Source: Neobacillus sp. FSL H8-0543 (lineage in GTDB: Bacteria > Bacillota > Bacilli > Bacillales > Cytobacillaceae). Taken from it: DNA of 64,000 nt. Shown here in pieces: positions 37,281 to 46,592 of the stretch. A program made the position numbers and the translations under genes. Location: positions 4,414,501 through 4,478,500 of the forward strand of contig NZ_CP151943.1 of the NCBI RefSeq assembly GCF_038592905.1. The letters are read 5' to 3'. How positions within the stretch are numbered: the stretch's first letter is position 1; every line of letters begins with the position of its first letter. A model generated the notes under the pieces. It saw only the letters and a program-made list of their open reading frames with translations, was not told the DNA's origin and did not search any database.

Positions 37281-37300
37281 TGTATTGACAATATATATAA

Positions 37301-37546
37301 TTCCTCGGGGTCAGGTGTAATTCCTAACCGGCGGTGATGAAGCAAGAGCTTCTTAGTCCGTGACCCGGTTAACATTTTTGTTAAACGGTGGATCTGGTGA
37401 AATTCCGGAGCCGACAGTTAAAGTCTGGATGGGAGAGGAAAAAATAGGTGTAGTTAAAGGGATAAGTCTACCCTTTTTTTACCCCTTATTTTCTTATTGC
37501 TTTTTAAAGGACCCTAAAGGTGTATTTTCACTTTAGGGTCTTTTTT
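37301..37546 (+). ncRNA. FMN riboswitch (RFN element) with terminator
   Basis: The aptamer spans 37301-37440. Recognisable parts are the GGGGTCAGGTG 5' block, CCTAACCGGCGGT, AGTCCGTGACCC, GGTGGATCTGGTGAAATTCC, and the closing GGGAGAGGAA that pairs with TTCCTC. The expression platform ends in a perfect 10-bp terminator (GACCCTAAAG / CTTTAGGGTC, 37510-37540, then T6); a smaller AAAGGG/CCCTTT hairpin lies at 37456-37476. FMN would shut off the rib operon. Confidence 0.96.
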
Positions 37547-37571
37547 ATTTTCTTTTAAGGAGTTTTTGCCA

Positions 37572-38654
37572 ATGAATGATATCTACTTTATGAATTTAGC
37601 TTTGAATCTTGCAGGAGGTACACTTGGTCAAACAGCACCTAACCCCGTTGTAGGCGCAGTAGTTGTGAAAGACAATCAGATTGTGGGTATGGGGGCGCAT
37701 CTTAAGGCAGGGGAACCCCATGCAGAGGTTCATGCAATAAGAATGGCGGGGGACAGAGCCAAAAATGCAACACTTTATGTAACACTAGAGCCATGCAGTC
37801 ATCATGGGAAAACCCCGCCCTGCGCGGATCTAGTTATTCAAACAGGGATAAAAAAGGTGTTTGTTGCAACGACTGATCCTAATCCGCAAGTAAGTGGCAT
37901 TGGAATCGAAAAAATTAAAGCTGCAGGAATTGAAGTAGAAGTAGGATTACAGCAGGAGGAAGCACGAGAGCTCAATAAAATGTTTTTTTACAATATCAGT
38001 ACAGGACTGCCGTATGTAACGTTAAAATCGGCTATCAGTATGGATGGGAAAATTGCAACTTCTACAGGTGAAAGTAAATGGATTACGGGTGAGGAAGCTA
38101 GAAATGATGTACACCAATTCCGTCACCAGCATGATGCCATTTTGGTTGGTGTAAATACAGTGTTAAAAGATAATCCCAGCTTGACAACTAGACTTGAGAA
38201 TGGCGGTAAAAACCCAATTAGAATTATTCTTGATACCCAGCTACGAACCCCCATGCATGCAATTATCGTAACAGATTTGCAAGCACCAACGTGGATTATC
38301 ACTGGTCCTGATGTTGATGGGAAACTAGAGGCTGACTTTACAGCAAAGGGAATTAAAATAATTAAAATGGCTGAGAAGAAAATTCGAATACAAGAAATGT
38401 TAAAGATAATTGGTGAAATGGGAGTAACGTCTATATATGTCGAAGGCGGTTCTGAAATCCATGGGAGTTTCTTAAAGGAACGTGCCTTCCAACAGGTTAT
38501 AACATACATTGCGCCCAAATTGATAGGCGGCAAGCTGGCGCCAACCTCCTTCGGCGGAGAAGGTATTCTAAAAATGGATGAGGTTGTGTCACTGGAAATT
38601 AAAAAAATTGATAGGGTTGGCAATGATATTCGAATCATTGCAGAACCAAATTAA
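37572..38654 (+). CDS. ribD: Bifunctional riboflavin deaminase/reductase RibD
   Basis: About 360 residues from ATG 37572; AAGGAG ends 9 bases upstream. The deaminase half has the zinc site HAEVHA and PCSHHGKTPPC. The reductase half (residues about 145-360) has TLKSAISMDGKIAT and YVEGGSEIHG. It performs the second and third committed steps from the GTP-derived pyrimidine. First gene of the operon; ribE starts 14 bases after its stop. Confidence 0.97.
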   Translation: MNDIYFMNLALNLAGGTLGQTAPNPVVGAVVVKDNQIVGMGAHLKAGEPHAEVHAIRMAGDRAKNATLYVTLEPCSHHGKTPPCADLVIQTGIKKVFVATTDPNPQVSGIGIEKIKAAGIEVEVGLQQEEARELNKMFFYNISTGLPYVTLKSAISMDGKIATSTGESKWITGEEARNDVHQFRHQHDAILVGVNTVLKDNPSLTTRLENGGKNPIRIILDTQLRTPMHAIIVTDLQAPTWIITGPDVDGKLEADFTAKGIKIIKMAEKKIRIQEMLKIIGEMGVTSIYVEGGSEIHGSFLKERAFQQVITYIAPKLIGGKLAPTSFGGEGILKMDEVVSLEIKKIDRVGNDIRIIAEPN

Positions 38655-38668
38655 GGAGTACAAACAAA

Positions 38669-39331
38669 ATGTTTACCGGAATTATCGAAGAAATTGGTAT
38701 AGTATCAACTATCCAACGTACTGGGGAATCTTTTGTTCTAACAATTGAAGCTAAGAACATTTTGAATGATGTCCATCTTGGAGATAGTATTGCTGTCAAT
38801 GGGATTTGTCTAACAGTCACCTCCTATTCTGGCAATCATTTTTCGGTAGATGTTATGCCGGAGACAATAAAAGCAACAAGTTTGAATATGGTTAGGCGTG
38901 GTTCTAAAGTAAATTTAGAACGAGCAATGGCTGCTGGCGGCCGATTCGGCGGTCATTTCGTTTCAGGCCATATCGATGGTACCGGCTTGATTATAAGTAA
39001 AAAGCAAGTAGAAAATGCTGTTTACTATGAAATTGAAGCGGCCCAGGAAACGCTTAAGTACGTTATTTTAAAGGGATCAATTGCAATTGACGGGACAAGC
39101 TTAACCGTATTTGGTGTAAGTGAAAAAAGTTTTACGATATCAATTATCCCCCATACTTTATCTGAAACCATCTTGGGGCTAAAAGGCCCTGGTGATATTG
39201 TTAATTTAGAAAGCGATATGATTGGCAAATATGTGGGCCATTTTCTAACAGGCCTCGCTGCTGGTAAAGAAAATAAAAAAGACTCAACTGGAGTCACTGC
39301 TCAATTTTTGGAGGAAAATGGATTTGCTTAG
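38669..39331 (+). CDS. ribE: Riboflavin synthase alpha subunit
   Basis: 220 residues with the duplicated beta-barrel. The N-terminal MFTGIIEEIG and repeats of the GDSIAVNGICLTV / KGSIAIDGTSLTV pattern are diagnostic. It dismutates two 6,7-dimethyl-8-ribityllumazine molecules to riboflavin. Overall length and order in the operon are as in B. subtilis. Confidence 0.97.
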   Translation: MFTGIIEEIGIVSTIQRTGESFVLTIEAKNILNDVHLGDSIAVNGICLTVTSYSGNHFSVDVMPETIKATSLNMVRRGSKVNLERAMAAGGRFGGHFVSGHIDGTGLIISKKQVENAVYYEIEAAQETLKYVILKGSIAIDGTSLTVFGVSEKSFTISIIPHTLSETILGLKGPGDIVNLESDMIGKYVGHFLTGLAAGKENKKDSTGVTAQFLEENGFA

Positions 39332-39370
39332 ATTGAAACAGATATTGGCATTTGAAAGGGGAATTGATGG

Positions 39371-40009
39371 ATGTTTAATACCGTTGAAGAGGCGTTAATT
39401 GATTTACAGAAAGGCAAGGTTGTTATCGTTTGTGATGATGAGGATAGAGAAAACGAAGGTGATTTTATAGCATTAGCTGAAAAAGCAACACCGGATGTTA
39501 TTAATTTGATGGCGACGCATGGTAGAGGTTTAATCTGTGTTCCTATTGAGGAGGAGCTCGCTCAAAAGCTAGACCTCCACCAAATGGTAGCTAATAATAC
39601 AGACACACACGGCACGGCTTTTACAGTGAGTATAGACCATAAATTTTCAACCACTGGAATTTCTGCTTTTGAGCGCTCAGCAACGGTGTTAAGTATGATT
39701 GATCCTGATTCTAAAGCATCTGATTTTAAAAGACCTGGTCACGTCTTTCCTTTGGTTGCCAAAAAAGGCGGTGTGTTAAGAAGAACTGGTCACACTGAGG
39801 CGGCAACGGATTTAGCAAAACTATGCGGGGCAGCACCTGCAGGGGTAATCTGTGAAATTATGAATACCGATGGAACAATGGCGCGAGTTCCTCAGTTACG
39901 AAAAATTGCGGATGAATTAGATGTCAAAATGATTACCATCAAAGATCTAATTGAATATCAAAAAAAGAACGACAGTTTAGAAAATCTTTCTCAAAATAAA
40001 ATACAGTAA
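39371..40009 (+). CDS. ribB: 3,4-dihydroxy-2-butanone-4-phosphate synthase, single domain (RibB)
   Basis: 212 residues. [11 protein letters not shown] is the acidic metal site, [31 protein letters not shown] and CEIMNEDGTMAR-type [14 protein letters not shown] complete the family. In most Bacilli this position holds RibBA of about 400 residues with a C-terminal GTP cyclohydrolase II. Here the protein stops 15-20 residues after the usual domain end ([11 protein letters not shown]) with an unrelated tail, and ribH follows at once. GTP cyclohydrolase II must be encoded elsewhere. Confidence 0.95.
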
Positions 40010-40028
40010 ATTAATAGGAGGATTCATC

Positions 40029-40499
40029 ATGGGAAATCTTTTTGAAGGTAATTTAGTTGGTACGGGACTAAAAGTAGGAATCGTTGTCGGACGATTTAAT
40101 GAATTTATTACAAGTAAATTATTAGGCGGTGCACAAGATGCACTTAAAAGACATGGAATAAGCGATTCTGATGTTGATATTGCCTGGGTTCCAGGAGCAT
40201 TTGAAATTCCGCTAATTGCTCAAAAAATGGCAAATAGTAAAAAATATGATGCCGTTATCACATTAGGAACGGTCATTCGCGGGTCGACTCCACATTTTGA
40301 TTATGTGTGTAATGAAGTCGCAAAAGGTGTTTCTGCATTAAATTTAAGCACTGGGATTCCAGTGATATTTGGGGTGTTAACTACTGACTCAATTGAGCAG
40401 GCAATTGAAAGGGCAGGTACAAAAGCGGGGAATAAAGGCTGGGACGCAGCTACGTCAGCAATTGAAATGGCTAACCTCTGCAGGAGTATTGATCAATAG
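40029..40499 (+). CDS. ribH: 6,7-dimethyl-8-ribityllumazine synthase
   Basis: 156 residues. [36 protein letters not shown] (with the catalytic His) and FGVLTTD are family hallmarks. It condenses the RibB product with the RibD-derived pyrimidine and forms icosahedral capsids. Last gene of the operon. AGGAGG lies before the ATG. Confidence 0.97.
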
Positions 40500-40634: not shown

Positions 40635-40902
40635 AAAACAGGTGCTTAGTCGTTAATGACTGTAGCTTAAAAGGGAAGTTGGTAAAAAGCCAACGCGGTC
40701 CCGCCACTGTAAATGGGAGCAACCTATAAAATGTCACTGTCGTAATCGATGGGAAGACATAGGGAGCAATGACCATGAGCCAGGAAACCTGCCTGTTTTT
40801 GACACAAAAGCCTACGCGGATAGGAGAGTGTTAAGCAAAAACCGGTTGGTAACGATTTTTACTTAACGTACATAACTCCTCCTAATTAGGGGGATTTTTT
40901 TA
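40635..40902 (+). ncRNA. Cobalamin (B12) riboswitch with terminator
   Basis: P1 is formed by AAAACAGG (40635-40642) and CCTGTTTT (40792-40799). The invariant GCCACTGT lies near 40716, and GAGCCAGGAAACCTGCC at the 3' end. An intrinsic terminator follows (TCCTCCTAATTAGGGGGA, 40877-40894, then T7), preceded by a longer GTTAAG/CTTAAC hairpin (40830-40867) that may be part of the switch. B12 should turn off the uptake operon downstream. Confidence 0.96.
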
Positions 40903-40934
40903 TGTAAAAATAATGTATTGGGGAGAGACTTAGA

Positions 40935-42611
40935 ATGAAAAAGGGGAAAATAAATCTTCTGCTATCTGTAATTTTATTATTGAGTTTTGCATTCGGCGGA
41001 TTTCAGCCACAAGTAAGTGCTGCCGTACAAGAGGACAACGTGACAATTAATGTGATAAATGGGGAGACAGTTCTTGAACTGCCCGTACCTTTTAGTGAGG
41101 GTGAAAATGCTTTAGATGCTCTAATAAAAGCCGTGGATGGTGAGATTGATGTTGCTTCTTCAGATTGGGGAGCCTCTATCAATAGTATTAAAGGTTCAGA
41201 AATAAAAGAGAATCATTTTTGGGCCTTTTATGTCAATGGGATATCCTCACAGGTAAATTATGATCAATATAAAGTTCAAAATGAAGATCAACTAACATTC
41301 ACTTACATTAATTGGAACGATCCTGCTCCAAGTGTTTCTGTAAAAGTTGTAGATGAGAATAATGAAGATCTGTTAACGATAGCTTATCCTGTAAATTTTG
41401 TTGGCGAGACAACTGCTTTAAACTTATTAAAAGCTTTAGTTGGCCTGGGAAAATTAAATTACAAGACGCTATACATTAATGGTGCACCAAGTGAAGTAGA
41501 CGCTGAAAGTTATATTCTTAACAATGGGGATCAGATTACGTTCCAATATGACTCGTCGGGAGATGAAACTGAAACAGAACCTCCAGTTACTCCTATTTCA
41601 CAAGAAACACTAAAAACGGCCATTGATCAGGTAGTAGCTTATTATCAAAATCAACAAGTAGATGAATGGACACTTATAGCCCTGAAACAGGCAGGCAAGG
41701 AAATTCCTGAAAGCTACTTAAATAATTACAAGAAATTAATTAAAGAACAACAAGGGAAATTTAGAAAGATTACCGATACAGAAAGATATACCTTAGCCAT
41801 ACTTGCAGCAGGCGGAGATCCTACAAATATTGAAGGTTATAATCTGGTTGAATCCATTTATCAAGCGGATGTTACAAAGCAGGGGTTAATAGGTGTCGCT
41901 TATGCACTTTTGGCATTTGATAGCGCGAACTTTGAAATTCCTGAAACAGCTCTTTGGACGAGAGAAAAAGTCATATCTTATCTATTAGATAGACAAAACC
42001 AAGATGGCGGCTGGGCATGGGATGAAAGCACAACGAGTGACATCGACACAACGGGAATGATTGTGGCAGCTTTAGCTCCATACAAGGACCAAGCAGTTGT
42101 GAAAGAAAAAGTAGATTCTGCCGTTCTATACTTATCAGAACAATTTCAAGCTTCCAAGATTGATAATAGCTCAACAGCTGCCCAAGTAATTATCGCGCTT
42201 TCTGCTCTAGGAATTGATGCAAATAGTGCGCTATTCGCAAAAGATAACAGCAGCCTAGTTCAGTTTTTACTAACCTTCCAAAATGCTGATGGAGGCTTTG
42301 ATTGGATGGGGGGCGATGAAAGTGATTTGATGTCAACACCACAAGGTATTCAGGCTTTAGTTGCTTATCAGCTATATACACAAGGAAAGGGCTCATTGTA
42401 TAAACTGTCGTTAGCTGAACAGCAACCAGATACCGAGACTCCCGTAGATGAGACACCGGTGTTAGAACAAACACCAAACCAACCGAAAACGGAGGGACAC
42501 TTATTGCCAAATACGGCAACAAATAGCTTCAATCTCCTTTTAGCCGGTTTATTGTTGTTGATAACTGGAATGATTGTATATTACCTTAAGCAAAGCAAGA
42601 GAGAGGCTTAA
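40935..42611 (+). CDS. Sortase-anchored transcobalamin-like protein (two DUF4430 + alpha/alpha barrel)
   Basis: 558 residues. A signal peptide ends near QVSA (residue 29). Residues about 33-128 and 133-208 are two DUF4430 domains (HFWAFYVNGI; TLYINGAP). Residues about 225-480 are an alpha/alpha-barrel repeat region of the prenyltransferase/squalene-cyclase type (RQNQDGGWAWDES, FQNADGGFDW). A Pro/Thr-rich stem and the sorting signal LPNTA, a TM helix and KQSKREA end the protein. DUF4430 plus such a barrel is the domain set of animal intrinsic factor/transcobalamin, here in reversed order. First gene behind the B12 riboswitch, so probably a cell-wall-bound B12 binder (inference). Confidence 0.88.
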   Translation: MKKGKINLLLSVILLLSFAFGGFQPQVSAAVQEDNVTINVINGETVLELPVPFSEGENALDALIKAVDGEIDVASSDWGASINSIKGSEIKENHFWAFYVNGISSQVNYDQYKVQNEDQLTFTYINWNDPAPSVSVKVVDENNEDLLTIAYPVNFVGETTALNLLKALVGLGKLNYKTLYINGAPSEVDAESYILNNGDQITFQYDSSGDETETEPPVTPISQETLKTAIDQVVAYYQNQQVDEWTLIALKQAGKEIPESYLNNYKKLIKEQQGKFRKITDTERYTLAILAAGGDPTNIEGYNLVESIYQADVTKQGLIGVAYALLAFDSANFEIPETALWTREKVISYLLDRQNQDGGWAWDESTTSDIDTTGMIVAALAPYKDQAVVKEKVDSAVLYLSEQFQASKIDNSSTAAQVIIALSALGIDANSALFAKDNSSLVQFLLTFQNADGGFDWMGGDESDLMSTPQGIQALVAYQLYTQGKGSLYKLSLAEQQPDTETPVDETPVLEQTPNQPKTEGHLLPNTATNSFNLLLAGLLLLITGMIVYYLKQSKREA

Positions 42612-42661
42612 TTAATTCCACAGGTTCCCTTTTACAGAAGGGAACCAAAAGGAGGAATAGC

Positions 42662-43402
42662 ATGCAAAGAATAGTTAAATCAATTGTCTTACTTTTTGTA
42701 CTGCTGTTAACTTTTAGTTTAATTGGCTGTGGTACAGCCGAAGAGAACGCTAATGCAGGAAAAGAAGAAGAGAAGACAAGTGAAATAGTAAAAAAAGAAG
42801 AGCCTCTGGAAGTTGACAGCGAGGATAAAAAGGGTGGACAGGAGGAGACTACAGATTCTACTATTCCTTCAACACCAGAAAAAGATAGTGAACAAGTAGC
42901 GGAACAAGAAAAATCTCCGAATAGTGAAAGTTTAAACACTTCACCGGTAGAAAAAAGTTCCAGCAGTACACCCAAAAAACCTGCGGCCACACCAAGTACA
43001 CCGCCGGAAACAGGCAAAACACCGAGTACTCCACCAGTTACAAAGCCAGTTGATCCGCCAAGTACAAAACCAGAGAACCCTAAGCCTGCAGCGACTGTTA
43101 CTTTTTCGATTGTAGGACCAAACGATGTAGGAACTATTTTGTCAGGGTCAAAGATAGGCATTAAAGATGGCGATACGGCTTTCGATGTTTTAAAAAACGC
43201 TACTAAACAACATGGTATCCAAATTGAAACGCGTGGAAGCGGGGCTACAGCATACGTCGAAGGAATCGATAATTATTATGAGTTTGATTATGGTGCCAAG
43301 AGTGGCTGGGTTTTCGAATTGAATGGTGTAAGTATTTCAAAAAGTATTGGGACGATTAACGTCAAAGATGGTGATCGGATTGAATGCTACTATACCGAAT
43401 AA
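42662..43402 (+). CDS. DUF4430 lipoprotein, probable cobalamin-binding
   Basis: 246 residues. The lipobox LIGC ends the signal peptide, giving lipidation at about residue 22. A long Glu/Lys then Pro/Thr/Ser-rich linker (about 25-145) spaces the C-terminal DUF4430 domain (146-246; SGWVFELNGVSISKSIG). It is predicted to sit on the outer face of the membrane and hand B12 from the wall-anchored protein to the ECF transporter; that transfer role is inferred. GGAGG lies upstream of the ATG. Confidence 0.87.
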   Translation: MQRIVKSIVLLFVLLLTFSLIGCGTAEENANAGKEEEKTSEIVKKEEPLEVDSEDKKGGQEETTDSTIPSTPEKDSEQVAEQEKSPNSESLNTSPVEKSSSSTPKKPAATPSTPPETGKTPSTPPVTKPVDPPSTKPENPKPAATVTFSIVGPNDVGTILSGSKIGIKDGDTAFDVLKNATKQHGIQIETRGSGATAYVEGIDNYYEFDYGAKSGWVFELNGVSISKSIGTINVKDGDRIECYYTE

Positions 43403-43420
43403 TGTCTGGGGAACACAGTG

Positions 43421-44299
43421 ATGGAAAATCGTTTTGAGCGATATCATCCGTTAGTAGCTTTTCTATTTTATGCCGGCGCCTTGGCACTAATTATTCTAAT
43501 GCTTCATCCCATCTTCTTAATTATTGGATTTCTCGTTATTTTGGCTATCAACTATGTTCATGACCGTCTAGCAGGTATTCGGAGTTGGTTATTTTTATTT
43601 ATTTCAATGGGCCTATTAATCATGATTATCAATCCTCTTTTTAACGAAAGGGGAAGGCATGTATTGTTTGAGTTGGGGCAACACAGGGTGACATTAGAAG
43701 CAGTTACTTATGGTGGGATGAATGCCATATCAATCATTGGTATCATTGCCTTATTTGTCTCTTACAATGTGATTATGACACCGAATAAACTATTATATTT
43801 GTTTTCCAAATTCCTGCCGCAATTTGCTATTCTTCTGATGCTTACATTGCGTTTTATTCCGTTAATGAAGAGGAGATTAGACGAGATTTCCGTGATTCAG
43901 CAAAGTAAAGGGATATCCGTGAGTACTGGAAAATGGAAGACTAGAGCCCAAACAGGGATGCTTTATATACAAACTCTGCTGACTTATTCCTTAGAGGAAG
44001 CAATTCAAACCGCAGACTCAATGAAGGCACGAGGATATGGTCAAGGTAAACGTTCTTCATATGACTTTTTTCGTTTTCGAGGAATCGATGCGATAGCGAT
44101 CTTTTATCTGCTGGTTATTTTTGCTGGCACTTTATATGGACGATTCTCTGGCTTCGGTTATTTAACCATATATCCATTGATGGAATCATGGCAGTTGTCC
44201 TTATTGGATGCTAGCACTCTGATTTTTTACCTGTTATTTTTAAGCTTCCCATTATTCGTTGAAGTAGGTGCAATGCTAAGGTGGCGGTTATCGAATTAA
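43421..44299 (+). CDS. ecfT: Energy-coupling factor transporter transmembrane subunit EcfT
   Basis: About 292 residues, ATG 43421. Several TM segments and the EcfT coupling motif SMKARGYGQGKRSSY (Ala-Arg-Gly) in the cytoplasmic helix. It links the S component to the ATPases. It overlaps the ATPase gene by 19 bases, which points to tight co-translation. Confidence 0.92.
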   Translation: MENRFERYHPLVAFLFYAGALALIILMLHPIFLIIGFLVILAINYVHDRLAGIRSWLFLFISMGLLIMIINPLFNERGRHVLFELGQHRVTLEAVTYGGMNAISIIGIIALFVSYNVIMTPNKLLYLFSKFLPQFAILLMLTLRFIPLMKRRLDEISVIQQSKGISVSTGKWKTRAQTGMLYIQTLLTYSLEEAIQTADSMKARGYGQGKRSSYDFFRFRGIDAIAIFYLLVIFAGTLYGRFSGFGYLTIYPLMESWQLSLLDASTLIFYLLFLSFPLFVEVGAMLRWRLSN

Positions 44300-45921
44300 A
44301 CAACTTGAATTTTACTTATCCGGATTGTTCTGAACCAGCTATTCGAAACCTTTCGCTTACTATCGAAAAAGGGCAATTTGTTGTTCTTTTTGGTGCGTCA
44401 GGTTCGGGGAAGAGTACACTTCTCCGCTTATTAAAAAAAGAAATACAGCCGCATGGAGCACTAACCGGTGATATTCGGATAAATGGTTGTCCTGTTCAGG
44501 ATATGATTGGGTTATCAAAAGAGATTGGCTTCGTTTTTCAAGATCCCGAAAACCAGGTAGTTGCCGATGATGTTCTTCATGAAATCGTTTTCGGTCTAGA
44601 AAATAGTGGTCTTTCCACGAATGAAATGCGAAGCCGTGTTGCTGAAATGGTTCACTTCTTTGGTGCCGAGTCCCTGTTACACCGGAAAACACACGAACTA
44701 TCTGGCGGAAAAAAACAGCAAATTAATCTTGCTTCTGTTCTTTTAATGCAGCCTGATATTCTACTTCTAGATGAACCGACCGCCCAATTGGATCCAGTCA
44801 GTTCACGTGAATTTTTAGACATGCTTAAAAGATTGAATGAAGAATTTGGAATGACGATTATTATTGCGGAGCATCGGTTGGAGGAAGTATTCACCCTGGC
44901 AGATCAAATTGTCATGATGGAAAAAGGACAGATTTTGATTGACGGGGAACCACAGCGGGTTTTAAGACAAATTTGGGATACGCCTAATCAAGCATTTGTG
45001 CCTAGCATTCCTACGTTATTTTTTAGTATGGATGGAAACGGAAATGTCCCGTTAATGGTTAAAGAAGGAAGAAATTGGATGGAAGGACAATCTCTTCATT
45101 TTAACAAAGTTTCCAAGCAAAAAGAGGGAAACAGTAGAAGTGAATGGATTCGGGCAAAAAATATCTACTTCCGCTATGATCGGACAAATGAATTTATTTT
45201 GAAAGAACTTAACTTTTCCCTTGGCAAAGGAGAGTTTTATGCTTTGTTAGGCGGAAATGGTTCTGGAAAAACAACCTTGTTAAAGTCGATTGCGGGTTTG
45301 TTAACACCGGAGAATGGAAAAATATTTTACAATCAAAAACCATACAAGTCCTGGAAAAAAGGTGAGTTGACGAAAAAGATTGGCTATTTACCTCAAAATC
45401 CAAAGTTATTTTTCCTTCAGGATACCGTAGAAAAAGAATTACAAGCTACACTGAAGCAGTGGGGAATACCAAACGGCGGTTTAGTAGACGAGCTTTTAAG
45501 CCAACTTGGAATCTCTCATATACTAAAGAGCCATCCTTACGATTTGAGCGGTGGGGAAGTTCAAAAAGCGGCCCTTGCCTGTTTATTAGTAAGAAAACCG
45601 GAAATTCTTTTGCTTGATGAGCCGACTAAGGGACTGGATCCACTTTCAAAAGAAAATTTAGCTTTCATTCTTAGAAAGCTAAATGAAGAGGGTGTGACCA
45701 TCCTAATGTCTACACATGACGTGGAATTCGCTGCCCAACATGCAACAAAATGCGGGATGATGTTCCATGGAAGCATAACTTCAGAGGAAATACCCCAGCT
45801 ATTTTTTAAAGGAAATTTCTTTTATTCAACAATGATTCAAAGATTGTTTCGCCATATACCAGACTCCTCAATGATTACCGTAGAGGAGGTTCTCAGGCTA
45901 TGCGAGCCAGTAAAGTCTTAG
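44281..45921 (+). CDS. ecfA: Fused double ECF transporter ATPase (EcfA1-EcfA2 type)
   Basis: 546 residues, GTG start. Two complete ABC domains lie in one chain. Domain 1: Walker A GASGSGKST (38-46), signature LSGGKKQQ, Walker B LLLDEPTAQLDP. Domain 2: Walker A GGNGSGKTT (about 322-330), signature LSGGEVQKAA, Walker B LLLDEPTKGLDP. It powers B12 uptake with EcfT and the S component. The fusion replaces the two separate EcfA genes of the shared ECF module, so this operon carries a dedicated complex. Confidence 0.95.
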   Translation: MAVIELNNLNFTYPDCSEPAIRNLSLTIEKGQFVVLFGASGSGKSTLLRLLKKEIQPHGALTGDIRINGCPVQDMIGLSKEIGFVFQDPENQVVADDVLHEIVFGLENSGLSTNEMRSRVAEMVHFFGAESLLHRKTHELSGGKKQQINLASVLLMQPDILLLDEPTAQLDPVSSREFLDMLKRLNEEFGMTIIIAEHRLEEVFTLADQIVMMEKGQILIDGEPQRVLRQIWDTPNQAFVPSIPTLFFSMDGNGNVPLMVKEGRNWMEGQSLHFNKVSKQKEGNSRSEWIRAKNIYFRYDRTNEFILKELNFSLGKGEFYALLGGNGSGKTTLLKSIAGLLTPENGKIFYNQKPYKSWKKGELTKKIGYLPQNPKLFFLQDTVEKELQATLKQWGIPNGGLVDELLSQLGISHILKSHPYDLSGGEVQKAALACLLVRKPEILLLDEPTKGLDPLSKENLAFILRKLNEEGVTILMSTHDVEFAAQHATKCGMMFHGSITSEEIPQLFFKGNFFYSTMIQRLFRHIPDSSMITVEEVLRLCEPVKS

Positions 45922-46592
45922 TAACGGTTAGCCTGATTATGTTAGCAATAGGGTTTCTCGTGGTAACTTTATTGTGGGACGATCATTATTTATTGTTAAG
46001 CTTTGGGCTGATTACGGTTTCGATGCTGTTTTTTTTGTTTCGTTTTGAAAAAAGAAAAATCGAACCGCGGGAATTGGTTCTGCTTGCCGTTCTTGCGTCC
46101 ATTGCAGCGGTCGGCAGGATTCCGTTTGCTAGTATTCCTAGTGTCCAGCCAACAACCTTTGTGATTATGCTGTCTGGTTTTGTTTTTGGTGCAGAAAGCG
46201 GATTGGTTATTGGGAGCGTTGCTGCGCTGGCATCAAATATGATCCTTGGTCAAGGGCCGTGGACGCCATGGCAAATGCTTGCTTGGGGGTTAGTTGGGTT
46301 GACCGCAGGATTGCTTAGAAAAACAAAGCTAATGAAATCGGTCTGGGGAAAAGTTCTTTTTGGTATCATCTGGGGCTTTTTATTTGGCTGGATTACAAAT
46401 ATCTGGGGGTTATTATCTTTATCTCAATCGGGAACTCCGTTAAACGCTGAGACGGTATGGCTTTACTTTGCGGCAAGTGCGCTATTCGACTCCATGCACT
46501 CCGTTTCCAATGTGTTCTTCCTCTTGTTATTCGGGAACATTTGGATAAAAACTTTAACAAGATTCAAAAAAAAATATGGTTTGCTAGAATGA
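45900..46592 (+). CDS. ECF transporter S component, probably cobalamin-specific (CbrT-like)
   Basis: 230 residues with about six TM segments; LAVLASIAAVGRIPFASIPSVQPTTF and the downstream GAESGLVIGSVAALASNM are typical of the S component group found with B12 riboswitches. It overlaps the ATPase gene by 22 bases. Substrate assignment rests on the upstream B12 riboswitch and on family knowledge of the CbrT group, not on a binding residue seen here. Confidence 0.85.
   Translation: MRASKVLVTVSLIMLAIGFLVVTLLWDDHYLLLSFGLITVSMLFFLFRFEKRKIEPRELVLLAVLASIAAVGRIPFASIPSVQPTTFVIMLSGFVFGAESGLVIGSVAALASNMILGQGPWTPWQMLAWGLVGLTAGLLRKTKLMKSVWGKVLFGIIWGFLFGWITNIWGLLSLSQSGTPLNAETVWLYFAASALFDSMHSVSNVFFLLLFGNIWIKTLTRFKKKYGLLE

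Follow-up and report, generated by a model that had tools for sequence, protein, structure and literature searches.

The window analyzed here, a 64,000-nucleotide stretch of the genome of Neobacillus sp. FSL H8-0543 (RefSeq assembly GCF_038592905.1, contig NZ_CP151943.1, positions 4,414,501 to 4,478,500 of the forward strand), holds an operon that opens, behind a cobalamin (vitamin B12) riboswitch, with the gene for a predicted wall-anchored protein, and continues with genes for a DUF4430 lipoprotein and for the three components (EcfT, EcfA and S) of an energy-coupling factor (ECF) transporter. Judging from sequence and structural comparison, this operon very probably captures B12 or a close corrinoid for an importer of the ECF-CbrT type, with binding by its surface proteins being predicted. 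The strongest functional evidence in our analysis is the distribution of the operon in relation to that of BtuC, which suggests that the operon replaces the BtuFCD importer in many relatives. Together with the match of the S component to CbrT and the riboswitches found at the related loci, this distribution argues for the Gram-positive B12 capture system that a first-pass annotation of the window had proposed.

BtuC was called in 151 genomes of the same family, using the BtuC-like protein of the window's own genome as query (E ≤ 1e-60), with a match obtained in 126 genomes and none in 25. The operon is present in 23 of the 25 genomes without BtuC versus 7 of the 126 with it, leaving 119 genomes that have BtuC and no operon and 2 that have neither (Fisher test, 6e-19); as the genomes are related, this and the other Fisher values given here overstate independence. 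The two genomes with neither are incomplete assemblies (G084, 81% complete, and G136, 66%). The same distribution is seen in the window's genus, where 6 genomes have the operon only, 2 have both, 20 have BtuC only, and 0 have neither (p 7e-5), and in a second genus (g20), in which BtuC is missing from 2/2 operon genomes versus 0/3 of the others. The window's genome is itself one of the seven in which the operon and BtuC occur together, and carries a BtuFCD-like importer alongside the operon.

All 23 genomes that have the operon and lack BtuC keep proteins with B12-binding domains, and 21 of the 23 lack CbiD. Such cells appear to be in need of B12, with the operon as their sole importer of the two tested. 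In four of the 23, the stretch at the second B12 riboswitch gave no BtuF or BtuC match; at both of the loci read for their genes (L138, 2135-5979, and L139, 1784-5584), this riboswitch precedes genes that read, from their translations, as nrdE, nrdF, and nrdI of a class Ib ribonucleotide reductase. The second cobalamin riboswitch of the window's genome (G000:C1:5060827-5061028; L069, 4137-13419, within G000:C1:5057000-5071000) is followed by genes that read as btuF, btuC, and a btuD-like ATPase that is extended at its C-terminus; genes for corrinoid salvage (cobA, cobQ, cbiB and others) are found there too, all again named from translations. CbiD is present in 4 of the 30 operon genomes versus 39 of the 121 others (p 0.04), and is missing from the window's genome; we considered this anti-correlation as further support, but it is weak, and we rely on the BtuC result instead.

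Searches for the architecture, a check that the first-pass annotation had proposed with hidden Markov models (HMMs), recovered both family and distant loci, including one in alpha-then-beta order (L127, discussed below). A strong match covering the alpha/alpha toroid of the wall protein is present in 30 of the 151 family genomes (best E 3.4e-37 or better), with the next genome at 9.3e-10; among those listed, the weaker family matches fall mostly on the sorting signal. Loci were fetched for 28 of the 30, the two left out being the window's genome and G059, which is fragmented. In all 28 the cobalamin riboswitch RF00174 lies upstream in the same orientation, with a score of at least 96 bits in 27 and of 49 bits in one (L056). 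The wall protein, lipoprotein, EcfT, EcfA, and S component are kept at 27/28 of these loci, the exception again being L056, which keeps the lipoprotein and the S component. As the riboswitch is common to 28/28 loci and the whole gene set to 27/28, the gene arrangement is not due to chance.

At greater distance, RF00174 lies on the same strand at 14/24 loci, and all three ECF genes lie near the toroid protein at 12/24. The riboswitch scan took in 27 of 60 loci, namely these 24 together with L100, L105, and L106, all three of which have a cobalamin riboswitch. The protein of one relative (L131) combines two toroids, three DUF4430 domains, and three S-layer domains in a single chain, and other relatives likewise combine several toroids with DUF4430. 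The clostridial loci L117, L118, L121, L124, L128, and L130 encode proteins of ~1300-2600 residues, some cut by the locus end and sometimes in consecutive genes, with up to four or five toroid matches per chain; within the stretch scanned, a B12 riboswitch was found at L118 and L130 only. Weak toroid matches also lie near cobalamin riboswitches in Chloroploca (L136, 5789-13661) and Thermoleophilia (L137, 6308-8726), and because L136 additionally has weak ECF gene matches, including a CbrT-like S component, the link between the toroid and the cobalamin riboswitch may extend beyond Bacillota.

The features of the operon in the window are given in Table 1. The wall gene is indeed the first behind the B12 riboswitch, and the DUF4430 lipoprotein and complete ECF transporter that had been read after it are recovered, with Pfam and NCBIfam matches for EcfT and EcfA. 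Searched against PDB sequences, the S component has a single match at E ≤ 10, to 6fnp_A (CbrT, E 1.9e-13), with no other S component found; 6FNP is the structure of ECF-CbrT, presented in passages of PMC5997447 as a proven B12 transporter that moves both cobalamin and cobinamide. The lipoprotein consists of the lipobox cysteine, a low-complexity tether of ~120 residues, and then one DUF4430 domain, and gave no meaningful match when searched against PDB sequences. Folding of the RNA between the aptamer and the wall gene (40811-40912) gave z = -1.97, with 7/200 shuffles folding equally well. An inverted repeat (GGTTCCC...GGGAACC, 42623-42646) between the wall gene and the lipoprotein gene is possibly an mRNA stability or processing element. 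Directly upstream of the operon (37297-40499) lie a flavin mononucleotide (FMN) riboswitch and genes that appear to form a riboflavin synthesis set, a neighbor that is partly kept among the 28 family loci (FMN riboswitch in 2/28, lumazine synthase match in 8/28).

Table 1. Features of the operon and of its first gene product, in window coordinates.
Feature	Position	Strand	Evidence and remarks
Cobalamin riboswitch aptamer RF00174	40623..40810	+	120 bits, E 1.6e-29
Terminator-like hairpin followed by seven T, probable riboswitch expression platform	40877..40894	+	Pattern scan
Wall-anchored protein, open reading frame, beta-beta-alpha	40935..42611	+	558 residues, ATG start; Pfam, NCBIfam, AlphaFold2
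Probable signal peptide, ~residues 1-29	40935..41021	+	Model helix 3-20; hydrophobic stretch with AxA-like end, read from sequence
First DUF4430 / SLBB beta-grasp domain, residues 35-128, complete	41037..41318	+	Pfam, Foldseek, hhalign
Second DUF4430, residues 133-208, shortened	41331..41558	+	Gap of ~22 residues directly before residue 175
Alpha/alpha toroid, residues 218-490	41586..42404	+	
LPNTA sortase motif, residues 524-528, of LPXTATN-type sorting signal (LPNTATN)	42504..42518	+	NF058670, 46.1 bits (cut-off 32)
Lipoprotein, lipobox Cys23 (read from sequence)	42662..43402	+	C-terminal DUF4430, 62.6 bits
EcfT, CbiQ family	43418..44299	+	PF02361, 49.9 bits
EcfA, two ATPase domains fused in one protein	44281..45921	+	TIGR04520, 378 bits, two stretches
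ECF S component, CbrT-like (vitamin B12)	45900..46592	+	PDB sequence match 6fnp_A

The wall protein had been described as carrying two DUF4430 domains and an alpha/alpha barrel in beta-beta-alpha order, followed by an LPNTA sorting signal. The order is borne out by the positions of the Pfam domains and by an AlphaFold2 model of the full chain (predicted local distance difference test score 85.1, predicted template-modeling score 0.56), in which the relative placement of the domains is unreliable. The sorting signal is recognized, well above cut-off, by the LPXTATN-type model, and the host genome encodes two sortases. Pfam matches DUF4430 in two stretches (57.7 bits), but only the first of these domains, with an FWAFY motif at residues 95-99, is complete, while the gap in the second takes out the WAFY strand at a position that is occupied by 18-23 residues (22 in most cases) in 54 of 64 aligned sequences. 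The remaining 10 comprise 5 sequences with a shortened second DUF4430, the window protein included, and 5 without this domain; since it is shortened or absent in these 10/64, the conserved minimum among the aligned sequences is one complete DUF4430 and one toroid. Genome-wide, DUF4430 is matched three times, twice in the wall protein and once in the lipoprotein, with none outside the operon. All toroid models of Pfam fall below their cut-offs on the wall protein (Prenyltrans, 25.3 vs 26.5 bits; SQHop_N, 21.1 vs 26.2 bits; SQHop_C, 18 vs 26.1 bits).

Structural comparison with transcobalamin, also suggested in the first-pass annotation, confirms the likeness for the first DUF4430 and, for the barrel, at the level of fold only. 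The best Foldseek match of the first DUF4430 is the human transcobalamin beta domain (5no0, template-modeling (TM) score 0.79 by target), its HMM matches transcobalamin-1 at E 9.6e-5 and transcobalamin-2 only at 0.49, and hhalign against the transcobalamin beta domain gives 95.8%, such that the domain is clearly homologous to its animal counterpart. It also resembles PDB entry 3u7z (RUMGNA_00854), a stand-alone domain from a gut bacterium that is labelled as a putative metal binding protein (TM 0.78 by target, E 0.01). The toroid, on the other hand, is a match by fold and not the sequence-specific transcobalamin alpha domain: Pfam Cobalamin_bind (PF01122) gave no match on the window protein at E ≤ 1, and sequence homology to the alpha domain, sought by Pfam and hhalign, was not found for this protein. 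PF01122 gives 7 weak matches among the 64 aligned sequences (best E 0.0034), and homology to the alpha domain at the sequence level is seen solely in a distant rumen relative (L134, 27.8 bits vs a cut-off of 25), encoded beside EcfT, EcfA, and a CbrT-like S component. Conservation of the barrel-mouth residues, used as a test for a ligand site, is mild (19/273 shifts). The residues that we take to be transcobalamin contacts (Gln86, Thr134, Tyr137, His173, Asp176, and Asn224) were checked solely as sequence positions.

The closest approach to the animal proteins as a whole comes from clostridial locus L127, an operon of the same make-up as the window's, whose protein has the domains in alpha-then-beta order. 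Its 15 best Foldseek matches in the PDB are animal B12 carriers (416-453 columns, E 3.4e-10 to 2.3e-8), with the next match at 2.4e-5. We note that the L127 toroid alone is, by VIA-align, nearer to terpene cyclases, and that its DUF4430 falls under the Pfam cut-off (17.1 vs 23.8 bits), its assignment resting on a custom HMM (19 bits) and the fold matches. The window protein resembles transcobalamin, haptocorrin, and intrinsic factor in combining a beta-grasp domain of the same family with an alpha/alpha toroid, and differs from these alpha-then-beta carriers in its beta-beta-alpha order, shortened second beta domain, and wall anchor signal, as well as in having a toroid that is alike by fold and not by sequence.

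Taking these comparisons together, we propose that the riboswitch, to judge from its RNA family and the terminator, would permit transcription when B12 is low, and that the product of the first gene would be fixed to the wall by sortase, as its sorting signal indicates. The first DUF4430 and the toroid, by virtue of their fold and homology, may then hold the corrinoid between them in a transcobalamin-like manner, and the lipoprotein, on its long flexible tether, could take the vitamin or close over it at the membrane. Import of the corrinoid would fall to the CbrT-like S component together with the EcfT and double EcfA of the same operon, as is expected from the CbrT homologue.

Instead of whole cobalamin, the operon might import a precursor or a fragment of a corrinoid (cobinamide or alpha-ribazole, for example), to which the surface proteins would be tuned. 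Such precursors would be usable in the window's genome, which has apparent corrinoid salvage genes and no CbiD, and in which the separate BtuFCD-like importer leaves room for a second specificity; in addition, cobinamide is among the substrates of CbrT given in parts of PMC5997447. However, in 21/151 genomes the operon occurs without BtuC and CbiD while B12-binding-domain proteins are kept, which suggests uptake of whole cobamides, and CbrT is the only S component in the PDB to which that of the operon has a match. We therefore consider a precursor-specific operon rather unlikely.

Two further alternatives concern the wall protein itself. That it is structural or adhesive, or binds some other soluble ligand, with B12 being handled by the lipoprotein and ECF genes only, could be argued from the many proteins in which toroid relatives co-occur with dockerin, SLH, and cell-wall-binding domains, and from the acceptance, in part of PMC1796856, that SLBB domains may bind other ligands. 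We regard this as improbable, as a wall-type protein lies inside the B12 operon at 28/28 family loci, the first DUF4430 is clearly homologous to transcobalamin beta, and the L127 protein matches full-length animal B12 carriers. An enzymatic toroid, of the class II terpene cyclase or prenyltransferase-like kind and acting on a wall or lipid substrate, would agree with the best matches of the toroid by both sequence and VIA-align (squalene-hopene cyclase and drimenyl diphosphate synthase), and with residues 368-373 (SDIDTT) being near the acidic motif of the cyclases. Yet the protein appears to be secreted and anchored, far from isoprenoid substrates, all three toroid models fall under their Pfam cut-offs, and the motif reads SDVDDT in 7xq4, while human transcobalamin has a similar SVDTA. 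In light of the secretion and anchor signals, the sub-cut-off family scores, and the operon context, we set aside this reading, which appears highly improbable.

Returning to capture of B12 for the ECF-CbrT-type importer, how the two surface proteins would share the task is suggested by loci at which the domains are split. At L054, in the window's genus, a wall-anchored toroid protein without DUF4430 by Pfam is accompanied by a separate DUF4430 protein, and at L056 a toroid-only protein is accompanied by a DUF4430-only protein, hydrophobic in an N-terminal stretch, and by an S component; EcfT and EcfA gave no match within the locus stretch examined. These split loci point to an ability of the two halves to act in trans; this is compatible with a relay without being proof of one. 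B12 binding by a beta-only lipoprotein is plausible by analogy, because the isolated human beta domain is found with bound cyanocobalamin in the PDB (5np4, by its title). We tentatively put forward, as a possibility that we hold in some doubt, a wall-to-membrane relay in which the halves of transcobalamin work in trans across the Gram-positive envelope. Here, the wall-anchored toroid would offer the corrinoid, and the membrane-tethered DUF4430 would clamp it, swing it down, and dock on the CbrT-like S component, thereby acting in place of BtuF, to which it is unrelated. L054 and L056 would then represent the stripped-down form, and the window protein, L127, and the one-piece animal proteins the fused forms. 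If this is true, the operon would be a stand-alone replacement for BtuFCD.

The system had been called little-described, which holds for experiment: titles and abstract beginnings among the matches listed for open-licence papers gave no study in which B12 binding by a DUF4430 protein from bacteria was examined by experiment. It does not hold for prediction, as the architecture, anchor, operon, and role were all predicted in 2007 (Burroughs et al., PMC1796856). Passages of that paper describe toroid-SLBB fusions in either order, the toroid being at the C-terminus in Bacillus, and propose a Gram-positive anchor, a CbiO/CbiQ operon, a paired SLBB protein, a role in scavenging B12, and a transfer to animals. 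The window protein is a well-supported member of the kind predicted there, and the present evidence puts that prediction on considerably firmer ground. It shares with the transcobalamin-like SLBB clade, as portrayed in those passages, a signal peptide, a Gram-positive anchor, DUF4430/SLBB with an alpha/alpha toroid, a second SLBB paralogue, CbiO and CbiQ neighbors, and a proposed role in B12 scavenging; hosts of the clade usually lack key corrin synthesis genes, and the window's genome lacks CbiD, the one gene tested. Because the words riboswitch, CbrT, BtuC, BtuF, and energy-coupling are all missing from the main text of PMC1796856, the links to the riboswitch, to CbrT, and to BtuC replacement are additions to the 2007 prediction, as are the loci that split the halves between anchors, given that the abstract, passages, and first part of section 7 do not mention alpha and beta halves divided between wall and membrane anchors.

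Among known systems, ECF-CbrT of Lactobacillus delbrueckii (PMC5997447, PDB 6FNP) has the homologous S component, which, from passages of its description, relies on a single ECF module that also serves other S components (group II), whereas the window operon encodes an ECF module of its own (EcfT and a fused double EcfA) together with dedicated proteins for capture outside the cell. BtuG of Bacteroides, as described in parts of PMC6977713, is likewise located at the surface and catches B12 there on behalf of an importer, a role that is proposed here, but differs in its beta-propeller fold, its location on a Gram-negative surface, and its partner, BtuB.

Capture of B12 outside the thick Gram-positive wall is a poorly known mechanism, and it would be out of the ordinary for an ECF transporter to have extracellular capture proteins of its own. 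From the gene distribution, this operon seems able to stand in for BtuFCD, and, through the match of the clostridial L127 protein, the 2007 proposal of a bacterial origin for the animal B12 carriers becomes testable.
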